This document shows, in pieces, positions 2,386-37,068 of a stretch of DNA of 46,722 bases. The position numbers were made by a program, and so were the translations under genes. The DNA comes from Acidobacteria bacterium 13_1_20CM_3_53_8 (GTDB taxonomy: Bacteria; Acidobacteriota; Blastocatellia; Pyrinomonadales; Pyrinomonadaceae), in NCBI GenBank assembly GCA_001920415.1, contig MNJR01000093.1:44479-91200 (forward strand), written 5' to 3'. Position 1 is the first letter of the stretch; each line of letters starts with the position of its first letter. The notes below the pieces were generated by a model. That model saw only the letters and a list, made by a program, of their open reading frames with translations, was not told where the DNA came from and made no database searches.

Positions 2386-4914
2386 CTACTCACCAGCCTG
2401 CTCCATTCTTCCGTCAACATGGTCGTAATCGAATTCACCCGCTTGCGCTGACGGCCTGATGCTGATAACGACGGACTTCGACGCGGGCGTGTTGCTTCGT
2501 TCGGCTACGTGACCGATGGGCACGAGCACGTTGGCTTCCGGGAAATAGGTTGCGGCTGAGCGGCGCGGGATGCTGTAGGGGATGACTTTGAAATGATGCG
2601 CGGTTCGTTCTTCGCCATCGAAGTGGCTTGTGAGATCAACCGTCTGTCCCTCTGTGAATCCGAACTCCTCCATGTCTTCCGCGTTGAGGAAGATGACGCG
2701 GCGGCCATTATGGATTCCGCGATAGCGGTCGTCCAACGTGTAGACGGTCGTGTTGAATTGGTCGTGGCTGCGCATGGTCATCATCAAAAACTGGTCTGGA
2801 GCAAGCGTGATGGTCGGTAGAGGATGAGCTGTGAAATTCGCGCGACTCGTCGCCGTTTTGAATACGCCTTCGCGTGCGGCGTTTGGAAGATAAAAGCCTC
2901 CGGGTTCACGCACGCGGCGGTTGTAATCATCGAAACCCGGAACGACACGCGAGATGTGATCGCGTATGCGGTCGTAATCTTCGACTAAATAGTTCCAATC
3001 AACATTGCTTCTCTCGCCAAGCGTAGCGTGCGCAAGTCGCGCGACGATCGCAGGCTCGCTCAACAGATGTTTGGACGCAGGCTCCAGCCGCCCGCGTGTA
3101 GAGTGAACTACGCCCATAGAGTTTTCTACGCTGACGAACTGCTCGCCTACGGCCTGCACGTCCCTTTCCGTGCGACCTAGACAGGGAAGAATCAAAGCCT
3201 GTTCGCCTGTTATGAGATGAGCGCGGTTCAGTTTTGTAGCAACATGCGCGGTCAGGCGGCAACGTCTCAATGCTTCAGCCGTGTATTCTGTGTCGGGCGT
3301 TGCCGACAGAAAATTTCCGCCGAGCGCGAAGAAGATTTTTACCTGTCCGTCGTGCATGGCTTTGATTGATTCAACCGTATCGTATCCTTCTTCACGCGGC
3401 GGCTCGAACTGAAACTCTTCTGAAAGACTGTTCAGGAAAGTTTCGGTTGGACGCTCCCATATTCCCATAGTGCGGTCGCCCTGCACGTTTGAATGCCCTC
3501 GAACGGGGCACGCGCCCGCGCCCGGTTTCCCTATCTGCCCGCGCAGAAGAAGAAGATTCACAATCTCCTGAATATTCGCCACAGCATTCTTGTGCTGCGT
3601 GAGTCCCATTGCCCAGCAGATGATCGTTCGCTCTGAATTGATAAAGATTTCCGCAGCCTGACGAATCTGCTCGCGCGCGATACCGCTCTGCTCTACTATC
3701 TCGTCCCAGTTGACTTCACGAAGCGCGCGCGCGAACTCGTCAAAGCCTGCTGTCTTCTCTTCAATAAATTTTCGATCCAAAATTTCGCCCGGTCGCCGCT
3801 CCTCTTCTTCCAGCACCTCCTTCATTATTCCTTTCAGGAGCGGCACGTCTGCGTTGATGCGAACTTGAAGAAAGAGGTCGGAGAGTTTTGTTCCATCTCC
3901 CACCCAGTTCCAGAACTCCTGCGGATGCTTGAAATTTTTAAGACCTGTTTCGGGAAGCGGGTTGATGTGAACGATTTTGCAGCCGCGCCTTTTAGCGTGC
4001 TGCAATGATGTCAGCATGCGCGGATGATTCGAGCCGGGATTCTGGCCTATGACGAAGATGGCTTCGGCCAATTCAAAATCCTCAAGGGTGACAGTTCCTT
4101 TTCCTATGCCGATTGTTTCCGAGAGCGCAGCGCCGCTAGACTCGTGGCACATGTTCGAGCAGTCTGGCAAATTGTTCGTTCCGAACTGCCGTGCGAACAG
4201 TTGATAAAGAAACGCAGCCTCGTTGCTAGTGCGTCCAGAAGTGTAGAAAGCCGCTTCGTCTGGAGATGAAAGCGAGTTCAGTTCGTTCGCTATCATATTG
4301 AAGGCTTCATCCCAATCTATCTGTTCGTAATGAGAAGCCCCGCGACGCAAGACTACCGGATGAGTGATGCGTCCCTGCCGGTTTAGCCAGTAATCAGATT
4401 TTTGAGAGAGGTCTGCAGCAGACCATTTTTGGAGAAACTCCGGCGCGACTCGTTTCGTTGTAGCTTCGTCTGCAACGTGCTTCGCGCCGTTTTCGCAGAA
4501 CTCCGTGTGAGCGCGCTCGCCGTCAGGGTCAGGCCAGGCGCAGCCCGGACAGTCGAAGCCATCCTTCTGATTCAATTCGCTTAAAACTTTCAGGCTGCGC
4601 ACAAAACCCATCTCACCCCACGCGTGCCTGACCGTTGCTAGGATTGCCGGCACGCCACCGGCCACACGGCTCACATCTCTGACTTCCAGCTTCGTGAACT
4701 CTTCCGGCGTCTGCGCAGATACTGAGCCATAGCTTTTTCCCACATCCGTTATTCCAGCGCTCGTTGACTCGCCGCGTCCCACGCGCGTCTCTGTCTCGCT
4801 TTTCCTCTGCGCGTTAATATCGTAGTGGCTGGCCTGCTCGGAACTCTTCTCGTCCGTCGCCCCATCCGCTCGGTTCACAACCGCATCGCTCGTCCGCTCG
4901 CGTCTCTCGCTCAT
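2386..4914 (-). CDS. FdhF/YdeP-family molybdopterin oxidoreductase (formate dehydrogenase-like)
   Basis: This is a large bis-molybdopterin oxidoreductase, strongly like E. coli YdeP over nearly its whole length. In the longest frame (TTG at 4959, 857 aa) shared motifs include GFDCPGCAWPDP (133-144), FYTSGRTSNEAAFLYQLFAR (238-257), PDCSNMCHESS and GHSNVQGDRTMGI. Cys271 of CSNMC-HE sits where formate dehydrogenase H carries selenocysteine, so it is the probable Mo ligand and this is a Cys form. I prefer the ATG at 4914, which has GGAG about 9 nt upstream. Even then about 80 low-complexity, charged residues precede the conserved domain, more than in YdeP. The substrate of this family is not settled; YdeP is linked to acid resistance. 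No partner subunits or FdhD are nearby. Confidence 0.88.
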   Translation of the reverse strand: MSERRERTSDAVVNRADGATDEKSSEQASHYDINAQRKSETETRVGRGESTSAGITDVGKSYGSVSAQTPEEFTKLEVRDVSRVAGGVPAILATVRHAWGEMGFVRSLKVLSELNQKDGFDCPGCAWPDPDGERAHTEFCENGAKHVADEATTKRVAPEFLQKWSAADLSQKSDYWLNRQGRITHPVVLRRGASHYEQIDWDEAFNMIANELNSLSSPDEAAFYTSGRTSNEAAFLYQLFARQFGTNNLPDCSNMCHESSGAALSETIGIGKGTVTLEDFELAEAIFVIGQNPGSNHPRMLTSLQHAKRRGCKIVHINPLPETGLKNFKHPQEFWNWVGDGTKLSDLFLQVRINADVPLLKGIMKEVLEEEERRPGEILDRKFIEEKTAGFDEFARALREVNWDEIVEQSGIAREQIRQAAEIFINSERTIICWAMGLTQHKNAVANIQEIVNLLLLRGQIGKPGAGACPVRGHSNVQGDRTMGIWERPTETFLNSLSEEFQFEPPREEGYDTVESIKAMHDGQVKIFFALGGNFLSATPDTEYTAEALRRCRLTAHVATKLNRAHLITGEQALILPCLGRTERDVQAVGEQFVSVENSMGVVHSTRGRLEPASKHLLSEPAIVARLAHATLGERSNVDWNYLVEDYDRIRDHISRVVPGFDDYNRRVREPGGFYLPNAAREGVFKTATSRANFTAHPLPTITLAPDQFLMMTMRSHDQFNTTVYTLDDRYRGIHNGRRVIFLNAEDMEEFGFTEGQTVDLTSHFDGEERTAHHFKVIPYSIPRRSAATYFPEANVLVPIGHVAERSNTPASKSVVISIRPSAQAGEFDYDHVDGRMEQAGE

Positions 4915-4985
4915 CTTCAATAGCTCCACACCATCTCTTGATGCCGTTTTAGAACTCAACCCGCTTTGCGAGCTTAAGTTTTTAA

Positions 4986-7143: not shown

Positions 7144-7478
7144 GTTTCAAGTTTCAGGTTTCAGGTTTCAAGTTAAAGAGATTTTCTAACTTACCTTACG
7201 CAAGATTGGATTTCAGCCCGCGCAAGCGGGCGACCGTCTAAAGCCCAGTGCGTTAGCGCTGGGTTAAGTGTTGGCAGAAAGATTATCAAGCCCGCGAGAG
7301 CGGGCGGCAGCGCATGATAATCAAAGGGCTGTCGCTCGTCTTCGATAGCTCTAACTACATTCTTTACACTCTAACCCGGCGCTCACGCACCGGGCTTTAG
7401 ACGGTCGCCGTCTAAAGACGGCTTAAAACTTTTGGCTGCGTAACATGAGCTTTTAACTTGAAACCTGAAACTTGAAAC
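7144..7478. repeat. Nested three-level inverted-repeat element (335 bp)
   Basis: This fills the gap between the phosphoesterase and the TPR gene. The outer arms are GTTTCAAGTTTCAGG words at 7144-7177, inverted at 7451-7478. A second inverted repeat of 37 bp with three mismatches lies at 7230-7266 and 7372-7408. Inside that is a small hairpin closed by GATTATCA/TGATAATC (7282-7321) that contains CCCGC-GAGA-GCGGG. CCCGC...GCGGG palindromes also occur near 7216-7230. No coding sequence is convincing. It looks like a MITE/REP-type composite. Confidence 0.8.
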
Positions 7479-7568
7479 CCTTTTGTTGACACTCACTCGG
7501 ATTGCCAATAGACTTTGAATGGTCTTCTCAGACGGTCTCACAACGAAACTCTTTCGAGGTCACTTCGG

Positions 7569-8402
7569 ATGTCAAAACTAAAACTCCTCTTTTCCGGCAG
7601 GGCATGCTTTGTTCTGCTTACTCCTATATTAATCGTTCTGGCGCTCGGCGCGCCCCGAAGCGTCTGGGCGCAAGACGCGCAGCCGAGAGCATTCTCATTT
7701 AATCGAGAGGCCGAAGCCGCCATGCGCGAGGGCGAGGCGGCGTTTGCGCGCAACGACATGGACGCGGCGCTTAAAGCCTATCAGCGTGCGCTCAGTCTTG
7801 ACCCGACCATATACGAAGCGGCGCTCTTCACAGGCGATGTATATTTTCAGAAGCGCGACATGAAGAAGGCTGGCGAATGGTACGCCAAAGCCATAGCGCT
7901 CAACCCGAACCGCGAGACAGCCTATCGTTACTGGAGCGATGCACTGCTGCGATCAGGACAGATGGAAGAAGCGCTCGACAAAGCTATTGAAGCCATCATA
8001 GCAGAGCCTTACAACCAGATGTCTTATCGCGGCTTGATACAGTGGGCGCAGGTCAACCACGTTCAGCCGGGTCATCCGCAGATTGATTATTCCACAGTGG
8101 AAGCGCTCAATCGCAGCAACACCTTGCGCGAAGCCATCGAGACGCTTCGCGCTCGAATGACGGCTGCGCCGAACAGCACGGCAACGGCGAGCAAGACCGG
8201 CGGCACAACTGATGACACGCAGAACTCGTCCACCGCCGCCACACTCACCAAGCTGAACGACGCCGGACTGCTAGAAGCGTTCGTTCTGCTCGCACACTCT
8301 AACGAGAGGATAGCGCGCGAATATGAAGAGTACCGCAAGAACAACCGCGAGAAACTGCGCCGCTATTTGCGAGAGTTCGTCGTAAAGAGAGAAAGCGCAT
8401 AA
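7569..8402 (+). CDS. Secreted TPR-repeat protein
   Basis: The chosen ATG at 7569 has GAGGT about 8 nt upstream and gives 277 residues. It begins with a clear signal peptide, a basic MSKLK region, then hydrophobic LLTPILIVLALG, ending near VWA-QD. A TTG 54 nt earlier would bury the signal. The mature part carries about three tetratricopeptide repeats (roughly residues 40-150, e.g. AFARNDMDAALKAYQRALSL and DMKKAGEWYAKAIALNP). A low-complexity Thr/Ser linker and a charged helical C-terminus (EEYRKNNREKLRRYLREFV) follow. It is probably a periplasmic scaffold. No enzymatic domain is seen and I cannot name a partner. Confidence 0.8.
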   Translation: MSKLKLLFSGRACFVLLTPILIVLALGAPRSVWAQDAQPRAFSFNREAEAAMREGEAAFARNDMDAALKAYQRALSLDPTIYEAALFTGDVYFQKRDMKKAGEWYAKAIALNPNRETAYRYWSDALLRSGQMEEALDKAIEAIIAEPYNQMSYRGLIQWAQVNHVQPGHPQIDYSTVEALNRSNTLREAIETLRARMTAAPNSTATASKTGGTTDDTQNSSTAATLTKLNDAGLLEAFVLLAHSNERIAREYEEYRKNNREKLRRYLREFVVKRESA

Positions 8403-8403
8403 T

Positions 8404-8526
8404 AAAAAGGCAAAAGTAAAAAGGTAAAAGGCAAAAGTAAGGCTGAAACCATATTTTAATAAAAAGATTGGCTTCCCCTCACTTTTGCCTTTTTACTTTT
8501 ACCTTTTACCTTCCTTTTTGCCTTTC
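8404..8526. repeat. AAAAGGCAAAAGTAAAAAGG-word hairpin (family C)
   Basis: The left arm at 8404-8441 of AAAAGGCAAAAGT and AAAAGGT words pairs with complementary words at 8480-8526. It sits between two convergent genes, where it could terminate both transcripts. The same words recur in the gaps at 26772-26857 and 39458-39573. Confidence 0.78.
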
Positions 8527-8527
8527 T

Positions 8528-10270
8528 TTATCTAAAGCGTGAAGGCTTTCGAGGAATCCTCTCATCCATCATTGCGGCGTTGTAGGCGAAGGCCGCTAAA
8601 ACTGTTGCGGCCTGCTTCATGTCATCCTCTTGAATGCGGTCGAAGACATCCATGTTCGAGTGCCATGTGCGCGTAGTGTACTCAATCTCGTCCTGCATCA
8701 GATTGAAGGCGGGAAGACCTATTGTGTCGAAAGATTCGTGATCCGTGTTCGTATCAATTCTGATTGATAATGTCGAAGCTCCCATGTCGCGGAAAGATTC
8801 AAGCCAGCGGCGGAAGATTGGCCGCACGGCTTCGTTGCCTTGCAGGTAAACGCCGCGCACGCGCCCCGTTCCATTGTCCAGATTGAAATAGACATCGAAA
8901 TTTTCGTAACCGGGTTTCTTGATGAGTCGCGGCGCGGGCGTAGGCGCAGGCGTTGGTGCAACTGCGGGCTGCGCTTCTGGAGTGGGCGAAGCTGCGGGCG
9001 CTGGCGCGGGCGTTGGTTGCGGCTCTAATTCACCAAAATGTTGTTTGACGTAAGCTTCGGAGCCGTACTCGCCCTGCTCTTCACCGCTCCACAATCCAAT
9101 GCGAATGGTGCGTCTGGGTTTTAATCCCAGAGCCTGAATGATACGCACGGCCTCCATCATCACGGCTACGCCCGCGCCGTTATCTGTAGCGCCCGTCGCT
9201 GTGTGCCATGAATCCATATGCGCGCCCAGCATAACTACTTCATTTGGAAAATCGCTGCCCGGAATCTCCGCAACAGTGTTGTAGCCCATAAGGTCTTCGT
9301 CATGAAATTGCACATCCAGGTTCACACTCATGCGCACACGTACGCCCTGCTGTATGAGACGAACCATGCGGTTGTACTGCTCTGCGGCCACAGACACTTG
9401 CGGCAAGATTTTCGGGGCGTTTACAGTCCAGGGGTAAATGCGCTTTGCTGCTGGCGTGTCGAAAGGTTGAGGTACGGAAGCAGATTGAACGAACTGAAGC
9501 GTGCCGTCGTCTCCGGCGCGAGACCCGTCCATTAGAAGCGCCGCGCCCTCTTCGTAATAGAACCTTGTCTTTCTATCATTGAATGCTTCCTGCGCTCTCT
9601 GCTCCGGCGTTCTGGGCGCGCGGCGCGGGCGCGGCGGAACCTGCGCAGGATCAGGCGAGTTGGCAAGGTCAAGCAATTCTCTCTCGCTTAGACGAGTCGC
9701 CTGCGGCTCGAAGCGAGCTTTAAGCTGGCGCGGCGCGCTCGTCAGCACAATCGCGCCTTTCAGCTTCCCTTTGTATTTCTGCAATTGCTCCTCGTTCTGC
9801 GCGTCAACATAAACAGCATTAGCCGTCAGCTTTCCCGCAAGTCCGGGCGACCAAGCGCGCGGGTAAGCGATGAGCGGAGCTTCCTGCGGCTCAATCATCT
9901 CAGCCGAAAATCTTTTCAACTCCCATCCGCGACCGAACGGCCCCCACGCTTCAAGGTGCGCATTTTGCAATCCCCAGTCCGCCAACTTCTGCCGCGTCCA
10001 CTCGTTCGCGCGCTTCATATTCGGCGAAGCGGTCAGGCGTGGCCCAATCACGTCCGTCAAATATTCCAGCGTCTGCATCAACTGCGAATGGTTCAACCCT
10101 TCTGCCTTGATGCGCTCTACAGGATCATTCGCATCTCGCGGCGTGTAAGGCGTTGCTTGCGGCGAAGGTGCGGGCGACGGTGTTGCGCTCGGTTGCTGTG
10201 CGTAGAGATGAAAGCTCTGTACGAGCAGAAGAGATAAGACTAGAACGATTGTTAGTTGACGACGCGGCAT
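8528..10270 (-). CDS. Secreted M28-family zinc metallopeptidase
   Basis: The 580-residue protein starts with a signal peptide (MPRRQLTIVLVLSLLLVQSF, cleavage near YAQ) and a Pro/Ala linker. A GAGG lies 9 nt before the ATG. A PA-type domain occupies about residues 130-330 and is followed by the M28 catalytic domain: GAHMDSWHTATGATDNGAG (first His and bridging Asp), LWSGEEQGEYGS (catalytic and metal Glu), NTDHESFDT, and the final His in TWHSNMDVFD. The zinc ligands appear complete. A Pro/Thr/Ala-rich insert lies within the catalytic domain near residue 420. It is likely an exported aminopeptidase or carboxypeptidase used for protein scavenging. Substrate preference is unknown. Confidence 0.9.
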   Translation of the reverse strand: MPRRQLTIVLVLSLLLVQSFHLYAQQPSATPSPAPSPQATPYTPRDANDPVERIKAEGLNHSQLMQTLEYLTDVIGPRLTASPNMKRANEWTRQKLADWGLQNAHLEAWGPFGRGWELKRFSAEMIEPQEAPLIAYPRAWSPGLAGKLTANAVYVDAQNEEQLQKYKGKLKGAIVLTSAPRQLKARFEPQATRLSERELLDLANSPDPAQVPPRPRRAPRTPEQRAQEAFNDRKTRFYYEEGAALLMDGSRAGDDGTLQFVQSASVPQPFDTPAAKRIYPWTVNAPKILPQVSVAAEQYNRMVRLIQQGVRVRMSVNLDVQFHDEDLMGYNTVAEIPGSDFPNEVVMLGAHMDSWHTATGATDNGAGVAVMMEAVRIIQALGLKPRRTIRIGLWSGEEQGEYGSEAYVKQHFGELEPQPTPAPAPAASPTPEAQPAVAPTPAPTPAPRLIKKPGYENFDVYFNLDNGTGRVRGVYLQGNEAVRPIFRRWLESFRDMGASTLSIRIDTNTDHESFDTIGLPAFNLMQDEIEYTTRTWHSNMDVFDRIQEDDMKQAATVLAAFAYNAAMMDERIPRKPSRFR

Positions 10271-13119: not shown

Positions 13120-14250
13120 CTAGATTTTTCTAACAAAACATTTGCCCGGAAGCTGGCGAACAAGCTCGCGCATTTCAAGCCCCAGCAGCGCGCCGGACAA
13201 TTCGGGCACGGTCAGTTTGCTCGTCACAACCAGATCGTCAATGTGCGCCGGCTCGTCCGCAGATAGCAGCTTGAAGATTGTGTGCTCCGTCTCGGTCAAG
13301 TTCTCAGGCACGAGCGATAGCTGGTCAACCAGCGTTGCCTCTTTCTTCTTTTTCGGCTCAGGCGGTAGAAGGCGAGCGGCCACATCAGGCGGCATCTCTG
13401 CGGCTATGTCCTGCCAGGCTTGAACCAATTTTGCGCCCGCTCCCTTTATCAGATAGTTAGTGCCGAAAGAATTTCGGGAAGTTATATTGCCGGGCACTGC
13501 AAAGACTTCCCGATTCTGCTCCATGGCAAGGCGCGCAGTGATTAGCGAGCCGCTGTTTTCGGCAGCCTCTACCAGCAAAACTCCCAGACTCAAACCGCTG
13601 ATGATGCGGTTGCGGTATGGAAAATTCTGCGGCGCTGGCGGCGTGCCCAGCGGGAATTCAGATACGATTGCGCCGCCGCTCGCCAGAATCTCATCAGCCA
13701 GTTTTCTATGATCGCGCGGGTAAACTTCATCAATGCCGGTTCCCAACACTGCGACCGTGCGCCCTGCGGCTTCAAGCGCACCGCGATGCGCCGCAGCGTC
13801 AATGCCGCGCGCAAGCCCCGAAACGATTGTCACGCCGCGCTCGGCCAAGTCGCGCGCCAGCATAGTGGCAGTGTTTTGTCCGTAGGTAGAAGAGCGGCGT
13901 GACCCAACAATTGCAACGCACGGCTGATCGAAACAGGCGTCCCAGGCGCCTTTCACGTAGAGCGTAATCGGTGGATCGAAAATCTCTCGCAGAAGCTGCG
14001 GGTAAACTCCATCGTCAAGCAGAAGTATGTCCGCGCCCATCTCGCGCACGCGCTCTATCTCATCACCGGCAACCTCGAACAGGTCGCGCGCCATGATGCT
14101 CTCAATAGCTTCTGGCTGAAGACGCAGCGTCTCAAAATCCGCGCGCGTAGCAGCGAACACACCTTCCGCCGAGCCGAAACGCTCCAGCAGCCGTGCAGCC
14201 GCACGCGGCCCCACACCCGGCGTCATGTTTAGCGCAACCCACTCCCTCAT
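13120..14250 (-). CDS. dprA: DNA processing protein DprA/Smf
   Basis: The chosen start is the ATG at 14250 (MREWVALNMTPGVGPRAAAR), giving 376 residues. A longer frame to 14307 would translate the adjacent repeat. An N-terminal helix-hairpin-helix/SAM-like region (GVGPRAAARLLERFG) precedes the Rossmann core with VAIVGSRRSSTYG, SGLARGIDAAAHRGAL, VLGTGIDEVYP, SEFPLGTPP and NFPYRNRIISGLS. A C-terminal winged-helix (DML1-like) domain ends the protein. DprA binds ssDNA and loads RecA during natural transformation. No clear ribosome site precedes the ATG. topA follows it on the same strand after about 170 nt. Confidence 0.95.
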   Translation of the reverse strand: MREWVALNMTPGVGPRAAARLLERFGSAEGVFAATRADFETLRLQPEAIESIMARDLFEVAGDEIERVREMGADILLLDDGVYPQLLREIFDPPITLYVKGAWDACFDQPCVAIVGSRRSSTYGQNTATMLARDLAERGVTIVSGLARGIDAAAHRGALEAAGRTVAVLGTGIDEVYPRDHRKLADEILASGGAIVSEFPLGTPPAPQNFPYRNRIISGLSLGVLLVEAAENSGSLITARLAMEQNREVFAVPGNITSRNSFGTNYLIKGAGAKLVQAWQDIAAEMPPDVAARLLPPEPKKKKEATLVDQLSLVPENLTETEHTIFKLLSADEPAHIDDLVVTSKLTVPELSGALLGLEMRELVRQLPGKCFVRKI

Positions 14251-14251
14251 A

Positions 14252-14368
14252 ATTTTGGATTTTCGATTTTGGATTTTGGATTGCGAGATTCGTATGTTGA
14301 GAGACAAAATTCAAGTCGAATAAGCTCTCAACCCTAATCCAAAATCGGCAATCTAAAATCCAAAATCG
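14252..14368. repeat. TTTTGGATTTTCGATT-word hairpin (family B) upstream of dprA
   Basis: The left arm at 14252-14287 of GATTTTGGATTTT words pairs with complementary TAATCCAAAATCGGC words at 14335-14368. One edge touches the dprA start codon and the other ends 4 nt before the tRNA-Sec CCA end, so it separates tRNA from dprA. The same words recur at 21932-22057 and 36943-37068. Confidence 0.78.
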
Positions 14369-14371
14369 TCT

Positions 14372-14470
14372 TGGCGGAGGCGTGTAGGAATCGAACCTAC
14401 CTGAGCCTGCTCTCACAGGCTCACAGACGATTTTGAAGACCGCGCCGCTCACCAGAACGGATGCGCCTCC
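14372..14470 (-). tRNA. selC: tRNA-Sec (anticodon UCA)
   Basis: Read on the minus strand, the gene begins GGAGGCGC and ends CGCCTCC-G-CCA with CCA encoded. The anticodon loop is CTTCAAA with anticodon TCA (plus-strand positions 14434-14436), which reads UGA. Features special to bacterial tRNA-Sec are visible. The D stem is 6 bp (CCGTTC/GAGCGG) around a 4-nt loop. The long variable arm is an 8-bp stem TGAGCCTG/CAGGCTCA. The acceptor is extended to seven or eight pairs (the eighth would be C-A), and the T arm is GTAGG-TTCGATT-CCTAC. Total length of 99 nt fits. It implies that the organism inserts selenocysteine. selA, selB, selD and an obvious selenoprotein are not in the window. Confidence 0.95.
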
Positions 14471-14677: not shown

Positions 14678-16309
14678 ATGGTTAATTTCGAGACTTCGCC
14701 GGAGCGGTACAACCACTGGAAACTGAATGTGGACGGAGCGGTCGCCACGCTCTCTATGGATGTTAAGGAAGACGAGACGCTGGGCGATGGCTACAAGCTC
14801 AAGCTCAACTCTTATGATCTGGGCGTTGATATTGAACTCGCGGACGCGGTTCAGCGCCTCAGATTCGAGCACCCGGAGGTGCGCGTCGTAGTCATTACCA
14901 GCCTGAAACCCAGAATCTTCTGCGCTGGCGCCAACATATACATGCTTGGCACATCGCCTCATGCCTTCAAAGTAAATTTCTGCAAGTTCACTAACGAGAC
15001 GCGCTGCGCCATTGAGGATGCTTCTCATCATTCGGGACAAAAATATATCGCGGCGATAAATGGCACGGCTTCGGGCGGCGGCTACGAACTCGCCATCGCT
15101 TGCGATGAGATTTATCTGGTTGATGATGGGAACTCCGCTGTTTCGCTTCCTGAAGTTCCTTTGCTGGGCGTATTGCCCGGCACGGGCGGACTGACCCGCC
15201 TCGTTGACAAGCGCAAGGTGCGCCGCGACCGCGCTGATGTTTTCTCTACACTCGCGGAAGGGTTGAAGGCAAAGCGCGCGAAGGATTGGGGACTGATTGA
15301 CGACTTTTTCCCTACGAGCAAGTTTGAAGAATCAATCGTTGCGCGCGTCGAGAAGCTTGTCGAAGCTAATGGACAAAAGAACGCGAGCGCTGGCATCAAG
15401 CTCAACCCGCTTCAGGTCGAAGCGAGTGAAGCGGGGCGCGAGTACAAGTACGTTAGCTTGAAATACAACCGCGATAAGCGTTACGCGGATTTGACCGTGC
15501 GCGCCCCCGAAGAGAATCTGCCGCAAGCGCTGGAAGAGATAGAGAAGCTTGGCGATTCTTACTGGCCTCTTCAAGCTTATCGTGAGTTGGACGACGCGCT
15601 CTTGAATCTGCGCGTCAACGAATTAGAGATTGGACTCGTTTGCATTCGCACAGAAGGCGACATTGATAACGTGCTCGCTGTTGATGAAACGCTCGCTCGC
15701 AACCGTGACCACTGGCTGGTGCGCGAAATTCTGCTCAACATGGCGCGCTGCCTGCGCCGTCTTGATCTGACGGCGAAAAGCTTCTTCGCTTTGCTCGAAC
15801 CCGGTAGTTGTTTTGTCGGGAATCTGCTCGAACTCGCGCTGTCTGCCGACCGAACGTACATGCTTAACAACGCGGATGAAAAAGTTGAGATTGCCGTGAG
15901 CGAGTTGAACGCGGGCGCGTTTCCTATGAGCAACGGGCTGACCCGTCTGCAATCTCATTTCCTTGCCGAGCCTGAAAAGGTCGAAGAAGTTCTCAGCCAC
16001 AAAGATAGGTTCGACACGGAAGAGGCGGAAGCGGTCGGCCTTGTAACTTTCGCGCCCGATGACCTTGATTGGGAGGACGAAGTTCGCGTTGCGATTGAAG
16101 AGAGAACCTCTCTATCGCCTGACGCGCTAACAGGAATGGAAGCGTCTCTGAGATTCGCAGGGCCTGAAACACTCGATACGAAAATTTACGGGCGATTGAC
16201 CGCGTGGCAGAACTGGATTTTCCAGCGCCCCAACGCAGTCGGCCCGCAAGGGGCATTAACAAACTACGGCAAGCCAACTCAGCCGCAGTTCGATTACAAA
16301 CGGACGTGA
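14678..16309 (+). CDS. boxC: Benzoyl-CoA-dihydrodiol lyase (2,3-epoxybenzoyl-CoA dihydrolase)
   Basis: The 543-residue protein has the length and double-crotonase layout typical of BoxC. The first crotonase half contains RIFCAGANIYMLG (oxyanion-hole region, about residue 80), INGTASGGGYELAIACDEI, and LPEVPLLGVLPGTGGLTRL with a catalytic-site Glu. A diverged second half follows. BoxC opens the ring of 2,3-epoxybenzoyl-CoA hydrolytically to 3,4-dehydroadipyl-CoA semialdehyde and formate. boxB follows directly after a hairpin repeat. The start follows a candidate regulated promoter at 14540-14590. The reductase partner BoxA and the semialdehyde dehydrogenase are not in this window. Confidence 0.94.
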   Translation: MVNFETSPERYNHWKLNVDGAVATLSMDVKEDETLGDGYKLKLNSYDLGVDIELADAVQRLRFEHPEVRVVVITSLKPRIFCAGANIYMLGTSPHAFKVNFCKFTNETRCAIEDASHHSGQKYIAAINGTASGGGYELAIACDEIYLVDDGNSAVSLPEVPLLGVLPGTGGLTRLVDKRKVRRDRADVFSTLAEGLKAKRAKDWGLIDDFFPTSKFEESIVARVEKLVEANGQKNASAGIKLNPLQVEASEAGREYKYVSLKYNRDKRYADLTVRAPEENLPQALEEIEKLGDSYWPLQAYRELDDALLNLRVNELEIGLVCIRTEGDIDNVLAVDETLARNRDHWLVREILLNMARCLRRLDLTAKSFFALLEPGSCFVGNLLELALSADRTYMLNNADEKVEIAVSELNAGAFPMSNGLTRLQSHFLAEPEKVEEVLSHKDRFDTEEAEAVGLVTFAPDDLDWEDEVRVAIEERTSLSPDALTGMEASLRFAGPETLDTKIYGRLTAWQNWIFQRPNAVGPQGALTNYGKPTQPQFDYKRT

Positions 16310-21150: not shown

Positions 21151-21933
21151 ATGAAGCTCGCAAACAAAATCGCTTTGATTACGGGCGGCGGACGAGGCAT
21201 AGGTCGCGCCATTGCTTTCGCGTTTGCGCGCGAGGGCGCGAAGCTGGTCGTCGCTGCTCGCACGACTGAGCAGGTTGAGAAAGTCGCTGAAGAGATTAAA
21301 GCGGAATGCGACGTTGAGGCTCTGCCCGCATCGTGCGACGTTTCAGACAGAGAAGCGGTCGAGCGACTTTTTCAGATTTTAGGGAAAGAGTTCGGGCGCG
21401 GCGTGGATATTCTGGTCAACAACGCTGGCATTGCCGAGAGCGCGCCGCTCGTGAAGACTGATGATGAACTTTGGAACCGGCATCTGGCAATTAATTTGAC
21501 GGGCACGTTCTACTGCACGCGCGCCGCGCTGCCCGCAATGCTGGAGCGCGGCTGGGGACGCATCATCAACGTTGCGTCAATCGCAGGGAAAACCGGCGCG
21601 CCATACATCGCTGCTTATTCCGCGTCTAAGCATGGGGTCTTGGGTTTGACGCGCTCGGTCGCGCTGGAAGTTGCTACGAAAGGCATCACGGTCAATGCAA
21701 TCTGTCCGGGCTATGTTGAAACGGATATGACCACGCGCGCCATAGAGAGCATCACGGCGAAGACGGGCAAGAGCGAGGCCGAAGCAATCGCAGCAATCAG
21801 TCGCATGAGCGCGCAGAACCGTCTCATTACGCCCGAAGAGATCGCTTCGGTAGCTCTCCTTTTAGCTTCTGAAGACGGGCGAGGCATCACAGGACAAGCA
21901 ATCAACGTTGACGGCGGAAGCCTGTTGTTTTGA
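21151..21933 (+). CDS. SDR-family 3-hydroxyacyl-CoA dehydrogenase-like oxidoreductase
   Basis: The ATG at 21151 gives 260 residues (an overlapping TTG is one codon earlier). The classical SDR motifs are intact: TGGGRGIG at 11-18 for NAD(P), NNAG at 90-93, and the catalytic Ser143, Tyr156 and Lys160 in VASIAGKTGAPYIAAYSASK. The C-terminal CPGYVETDMT is typical. In this setting it probably oxidises a 3-hydroxyacyl-CoA or cyclic hydroxy-CoA ester between the crotonases and a later thiolytic step. FabG-like activity is possible in general, but the catabolic context argues against a biosynthetic role. Confidence 0.88.
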   Translation: MKLANKIALITGGGRGIGRAIAFAFAREGAKLVVAARTTEQVEKVAEEIKAECDVEALPASCDVSDREAVERLFQILGKEFGRGVDILVNNAGIAESAPLVKTDDELWNRHLAINLTGTFYCTRAALPAMLERGWGRIINVASIAGKTGAPYIAAYSASKHGVLGLTRSVALEVATKGITVNAICPGYVETDMTTRAIESITAKTGKSEAEAIAAISRMSAQNRLITPEEIASVALLLASEDGRGITGQAINVDGGSLLF

Positions 21934-22057
21934 TTTTGGATTTTAGATTTTGGATTTTGGATTAACTCAACAGCGAAAGTTTAATTTCCAAATTCCGAAG
22001 CACAAGCGGCACTGCCACTCCAATCTAAAATCTAAAATCTAAAATCTAAAATCTAAA
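21932..22057. repeat. GATTTTGGATTTTAGATT-word hairpin (family B)
   Basis: The left arm begins in the SDR stop codon at 21932 and runs to 21963. The right arm at 22021-22057 is at least four tandem AATCTAAA words abutting the RidA ATG at 22058. With no space left for a Shine-Dalgarno site, the arm itself forms the 5' leader of the next gene. Confidence 0.82.
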
Positions 22058-36942: not shown

Positions 36943-37068
36943 AAGTCTGGAGCCCGGTTATTTTCGATTTTAGATTTTGGATTTTCGATTGGAAGAAGCG
37001 GAAAAGCTCTTTAATCGAAAATCGCAAATCTAAAATCGAAAATCAATCTGACTCCAGACTCCAGACTT
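36943..37068. repeat. TTTTCGATTTTAGATT-word hairpin (family B) with AAGTCTGGAG ends
   Basis: AAGTCTGGAG (36943-36952) pairs with CTCCAGACTT at 37059-37068. Inside, TTTTCGATTTTAGATTTTGG words pair with AATCGAAAATCGCAAATC words from 37013. It starts just after the kynureninase stop and ends 3 nt before the dioxygenase ATG. Confidence 0.82.

Follow-up and report, generated by a model that had tools for sequence, protein, structure and literature searches.

A selenocysteine tRNA gene beside dprA in a member of the Pyrinomonadaceae and a candidate selenoprotein family in its relatives

Introduction

The tRNA for selenocysteine (tRNA-Sec) is distinguished by a D stem of 6 bp with a loop of 4 nt and by a long variable arm, and its D arm is a recognition feature for SelA (both in the accessible part of PMC7609411). 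As a further rule, the discriminator base is G73, and in most bacteria the CCA end is encoded in the gene (PMC5330540, in its accessible part). Besides the 8/5 type of bacterial tRNA-Sec, as found in E. coli, a 7/5 type with 12 bp in the acceptor and T stems occurs in bacteria, according to the same part of PMC5330540. There, the presence of multiple tRNA-Sec genes per genome, also in bacteria, is described and the meaning of the copy number is called unclear. Use of selenocysteine (Sec) in Acidobacteriota is already known since one genome of this phylum encodes three known selenoproteins (PMC12013277).

Here we describe a tRNA-Sec gene in a stretch of 46,722 nucleotides, called the window throughout, which corresponds to positions 44479-91200 of contig C62 in the genome G000 of an acidobacterium from the family Pyrinomonadaceae. 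The genome comprises 6.10 Mb in 155 contigs and is 95.9% complete and 3.9% contaminated.

Results and Discussion

The selC gene for tRNA-Sec is located at positions 14372..14470 on the minus strand of the window. ARAGORN calls exactly 14372-14470 as tRNA-SeC with the anticodon tca, and the covariance-model search, a check that had been set beforehand, matches Rfam RF01852 to 14376-14470 (minus strand) over the full length of the model with 69.8 bits (E = 2.4e-12; gathering score 47). This is the sole Rfam match at gathering thresholds in the whole window. The gathering score of RF01852 is lax, being exceeded by 5 of the 14 controls; at E ≤ 1e-10, which the window gene passes, only E. coli and M. 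jannaschii are positive among these 14. The CCA is encoded at 14372-14374 and is preceded by the discriminator G (G73). A simple scan of the minus strand for a sigma-70-like promoter and for a terminator-like site detected neither. ARAGORN, Rfam and the fold agree with the original prediction of a complete minus-strand tRNA-Sec with UCA anticodon, 6-bp D stem, long variable arm and encoded CCA, and 14372-14470 is confirmed as a genuine tRNA-Sec gene.

Folded as a single strand, the sequence forms the cloverleaf at -46.7 kcal/mol (z = -3.52), and none of 200 shuffles folds as well (all positions that follow are on the minus strand). In this fold, the 5' strand of the acceptor stem (14464..14470) is paired at 7 positions with 14376-14382, and the eighth acceptor position is unpaired with C 14463 facing A 14383, a C·A mismatch that is absent from the original prediction. 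The D arm (14445..14460) consists of a 6-bp stem and a 4-nt loop, the anticodon UCA (14434..14436; ARAGORN and fold) belongs to a stem of 5 bp, and the long variable arm (14402..14423) contains 9 pairs, 7 of which are changed on both sides in relatives. The T arm (14384..14400) has a 5-bp stem, which is seen in the fold and in the covariation. In an alignment of 17 copies from the family and the class, 97.4% of the pair cells are standard and 16 of 32 pairs are changed on both sides, which 0 of 500 shuffles reach; the structure applied to this alignment is the window's own fold, which biases the slide control towards it.

The mismatch at the eighth acceptor position was considered as a peculiarity of G000 and this idea is rejected, as it occurs in all 44 family copies examined (C·A in 28 and A·A in 16) and in 15 of the 30 best-scoring phylum copies. 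The 44 family copies were called locally with ARAGORN on 45 loci, two of which were without any call. Occasional mismatches in the acceptor are described as leaving the helix undisrupted (PMC7609411, in its accessible part). Compared to the 8/5 type of E. coli, the window gene is alike in the UCA anticodon, the 6-bp D stem, the long variable arm, G73, CCA, and an acceptor/T domain of 8 nt plus 5 bp, which are also the features by which it belongs to RF01852, but it differs by the C·A mismatch at acceptor position 8. With the 7/5 type of PMC5330540, as presented in the accessible part of that source, it shares that just 12 pairs are formed in acceptor and T stems, whereas 7 residues lie between T stem and G73 in that type and 8 in the window gene, the extra one being unpaired.

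It is most improbable that the window gene is a look-alike of tRNA-Sec instead, i.e., a selC* tRNA-Cys, an allo-tRNA, or a tRNA-Ser or opal suppressor. Look-alike tRNAs do exist, and allo-tRNAs are known from Acidobacteria as well (PMC7609411, in its accessible part). In the same account, however, selC* tRNA-Cys are characterized by U73, an 8/4 form and often a GCA anticodon, and allo-tRNAs by 12-bp domains of the 8/4 or 9/3 form, whereas the window gene has G73, a 5-bp T stem, 8 nt from T stem to G73, and UCA, so that it has neither U73 nor an 8/4 or 9/3 domain. The presence of selA, selB, selD, and Sec genes in G000 also argues against a look-alike.

In G000, selA, selB, selC, and selD occur together, each above its curated cut-off. 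The selA gene is encoded on contig C75 (559.6 bits, cut-off 267.9), selB at C62:8860-10755, on the tRNA-Sec's own contig at a distance of about 48 kb (368.3 bits, cut-off 242.25), and selD on C5 (356.2 bits, cut-off 125). A lack of selA, selB or selD in the genome had been named in advance as evidence against the original prediction, and all three are found. The selD gene itself contains a single in-frame TGA, read as SCAGUAAK, which we take to be the active-site position of SelD, and a hairpin of 7 bp with the loop GGTGT follows 3' of this TGA. On C154, the reading frame of fdnG contains a UGA at the position of Sec (QARVUHGPTV), and the gene forms part of a formate dehydrogenase operon with fdhE-like, alpha, beta, and gamma genes, the names of the neighbours of alpha being assigned by eye. 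This contig carries a run of 71 N followed by a frame break, and the gene is not whole in the record. A second formate dehydrogenase alpha subunit, on C14, scores above the cut-off (675.9 bits) and has Cys at the Sec site. The genes for two peroxiredoxins, one on C98 and one on C69, carry UGA at the Sec position of a TxxU motif, which is listed for Sec-Prx in the accessible part of PMC13188914. The search for selenoproteins in G000 covered three families (selD, TIGR01591, and PF00578) and yielded at least four UGA-bearing genes. Hairpins as stable as those after the UGA were obtained by synonymous recoding in 54 of 1000 cases for SelD, 290 of 1000 for FdnG, 6 of 1000 for the peroxiredoxin of C98, and 130 of 1000 for that of C69, and among these four only the peroxiredoxin of C98 stands out from its recodings. 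For tRNA 2-selenouridine synthase, the best score in G000 is 21.8 bits and none is above the cut-off, so that there is no evidence for the selenouridine trait in this genome.

The window tRNA-Sec is therefore almost certainly the single chromosomal selC of a bacterium that uses Sec. The full gene set and the genes with UGA at known positions of Sec bear out, at the level of the genome, the prediction that this organism decodes UGA as Sec, and its selenoproteins, i.e., SelD, FdnG, and the two peroxiredoxins, lie outside the window as had been expected. We infer that in G000 selC is expressed, that the UCA tRNA is charged, and that Sec is inserted at the UGA of these four gene products, with the hairpins putatively functioning as SECIS elements. 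The alternative explanation that selC is left over from a Sec trait since lost has hardly any probability. In 15 of 119 family genomes no tRNA-Sec is detected at E ≤ 1e-10, indicating that loss happens or that genomes are incomplete, and G441, which is among these, has a Cys form of SelD. In contrast, G000 possesses selA, selB, selD, and the UGA-bearing genes at known Sec sites, and the structure of its tRNA-Sec is intact and covaries in relatives. As this lineage is equipped to read UGA as Sec, annotation that halts at UGA shortens SelD, formate dehydrogenase, and peroxiredoxins.

At E ≤ 1e-10, tRNA-Sec is present in 104 of 119 family genomes (61 of 69 of good quality) and in 236 of 396 genomes of the phylum (199 of 338 of good quality). 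The phylum count at the gathering score (302 of 396) was set aside because 5 of the 14 controls also pass that score. The original statement that reading of UGA as Sec is patchily distributed in bacteria agrees with the literature, but needs to be modified here, since tRNA-Sec is near-universal in the family and common in the phylum. SelD is found at E ≤ 1e-60 in 96 of 119 family genomes, and 94 of 97 matches contain a single TGA inside. When 31 SelD loci were checked by motif, 28 had Sec and 2 had Cys, and 1 was assigned to neither. The two Cys forms, at L202 (G441, in which no tRNA-Sec was found) and at L210 (G468, which has tRNA-Sec), provide a natural Sec-to-Cys comparison.

More than one tRNA-Sec gene occurs in 5 of 119 family genomes, with four copies in G466 and two each in G427, G428, G477, and G197. 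Some relatives of G000 thus resemble, with 2 to 4 copies, the multi-copy genomes described in the accessible part of PMC5330540, whereas G000 has a single copy. In G197 (L174 and L175) and G477 (L176 and L177) the two copies of each genome are not identical and all are situated beside dprA, those of G197 near contig ends. These second copies could be duplicated loci or stem from mixed strains.

Directly downstream of the window tRNA-Sec and on the same strand lies dprA (13120..14307, minus strand), coding for a DNA-processing protein (TIGR00732, 252 bits, cut-off 191), whose true start is probably an ATG near 14250. Upstream, boxC (14678..16309, plus strand; TIGR03222, 824.5 bits, cut-off 712.3) is transcribed divergently. 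The pairing of dprA with tRNA-Sec recurs at 29 of 30 family loci, L144 being the exception. Of the 30 best phylum loci, none has dprA beside tRNA-Sec; G377, from another family of the same class, has dprA together with topA beside its tRNA-Sec. With its near-universal presence in the family and its place linked to dprA, tRNA-Sec provides a stable marker.

That selC lies beside the cluster of box (benzoyl-CoA) genes, as originally noted, holds for the distance, but there is no sign of a functional meaning; although boxC starts about 0.2 kb from selC, a functional part of selC in this cluster is rejected on synteny as exceedingly unlikely, because boxC (≥78% identity) adjoins tRNA-Sec in only 6 of the 30 family loci, against the 29 for dprA, and because none of six TGA-joined pairs of frames in the window looks by eye like a selenoprotein in a crude read-through scan, a weak one whose filter missed fdnG.

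The formate-dehydrogenase-like protein of the window (2386..4959, minus strand) is an oxidoreductase of the FdhF/YdeP family (TIGR01701, 970 bits), which with the Fdh-alpha model scores 264.7 bits, far below the cut-off of 666.25. The original observation that it has Cys in place of Sec is correct, as Cys is aligned where FdnG has Sec, and a Sec role for this YdeP-like protein was rejected on these grounds.

Between dprA and tRNA-Sec there is an inverted repeat (14252..14366) with 31-nt arms that are 87% complementary and separated by 53 nt. It is one of three intergenic palindromic repeats of GATTTTGGATTTT units in the window, at 14252-14366, 21932-22053, and 36966-37044, and the units have 13 matches in the window compared to 0.16 expected. 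Letters resembling the GATTTTGGATTTT repeats were noticed by eye, from the translation, in L132 near 10009.

The window selC itself is ordinary, and the interest lies mainly in a candidate selenoprotein of relatives. G466 has one tRNA-Sec at the dprA/boxC place and three in two similar clusters, in which a reading frame runs through TGA (...GFPWVVUPVIPDP), the two paralogues being 84% identical. Searches for this family identify 17 places in 13 of 119 family genomes and 7 places in 5 of 396 phylum genomes, three of the latter (G353) repeating earlier places, and in both searches no match was obtained in G000. Six genes have TGA at the site (two in G466 and one each in G427, G428, G377, and G246), at L171:2981-4036 (minus strand), L172:3505-4566 (minus), L248:5616-6551 (minus), and L249:3451-4347 (plus) as well as in L266 and L268. 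Five homologues have Cys at the site (two in G472 and one each in G419, G477, and G353:C28), and more distant ones have another residue, often Ala. The protein looks secreted, comprises about 300-350 residues, and has its putative Sec mostly in the motif GFPWV[VIF]UPVI.DPR. After the UGA, four Sec forms show CCCCCGG..CGGGGG, variants of which exist in G377 and G246, and which is missing from the five Cys forms. The energies of these C-rich/G-rich, SECIS-like hairpins are not extreme, as 44 to 122 of 1000 recodings are as stable in the four tested. Comparisons of the candidate with Pfam and NCBIfam gave no match, and those with sequences of solved structures gave seven matches at chance level (E 0.33 to 0.99), all of them prion-protein chains. 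Judged by sequence, the candidate is very probably a true selenoprotein.

Four of the six Sec genes are preceded on their own strand by a tRNA-Sec gene, at a distance of 372, 612, 665 or 702 nt. For G377 and G246, of which regions of 20 kb and 9 kb were covered, none was found near the Sec gene, nor is one present at any of the seven loci of non-Sec homologues included. The order of genes in G428 is selA, tRNA-Sec, candidate selenoprotein, and ABC transporter. The binding protein of this transporter (L248:1036-2031, minus strand) exceeds the cut-off of 250 for TIGR04553, a putative selenate transporter, with 256.0 bits, as does its counterpart in G427 (L249:4747-5637, plus strand) with 261.9 bits. 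A multihaem cytochrome is a neighbour of the candidate in G466 (twice) and in G427. The cassette tRNAs of G427 and G428 start with GGAGGTG, found in only these 2 of the 44 family copies, and differ there from the copies beside dprA in their own genomes; this shared start hints that the cassette might have descended as a unit. The cassette tRNAs of G466, in turn, resemble its own chromosomal copy.

Extra tRNA-Sec and new selenoprotein might form a conserved module in relatives, with the tRNA as a dedicated or co-transferred partner, a tentative reading whose chances we consider somewhat short of even. The gene for the tRNA may move together with that for the candidate and would raise the supply of Sec-tRNA for it. 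If true, both the idea of a Sec cassette and the role of the number of tRNA-Sec copies could be put to the test here. The copies of G477 and G197 do not fit a cassette because in both genomes they adjoin dprA, and those of G197 are near contig ends. Extra copies beside a candidate selenoprotein gene, as in the three relatives, are not described in the accessible part of PMC5330540, and the literature on Sec use in Blastocatellia and Pyrinomonadaceae and on tRNASec gene clusters, their duplication and selenate ABC transporters, mostly non-subscription papers, yielded no description of such a module. Close to an extra tRNA-Sec of G466, a redoxin-like frame with GYWUPYC was observed (L172:6322-6900 and 7293-8857, minus strand), which adjoins genes for ArsS-like radical SAM and AhpD-like proteins (TIGR04167 and TIGR04169).
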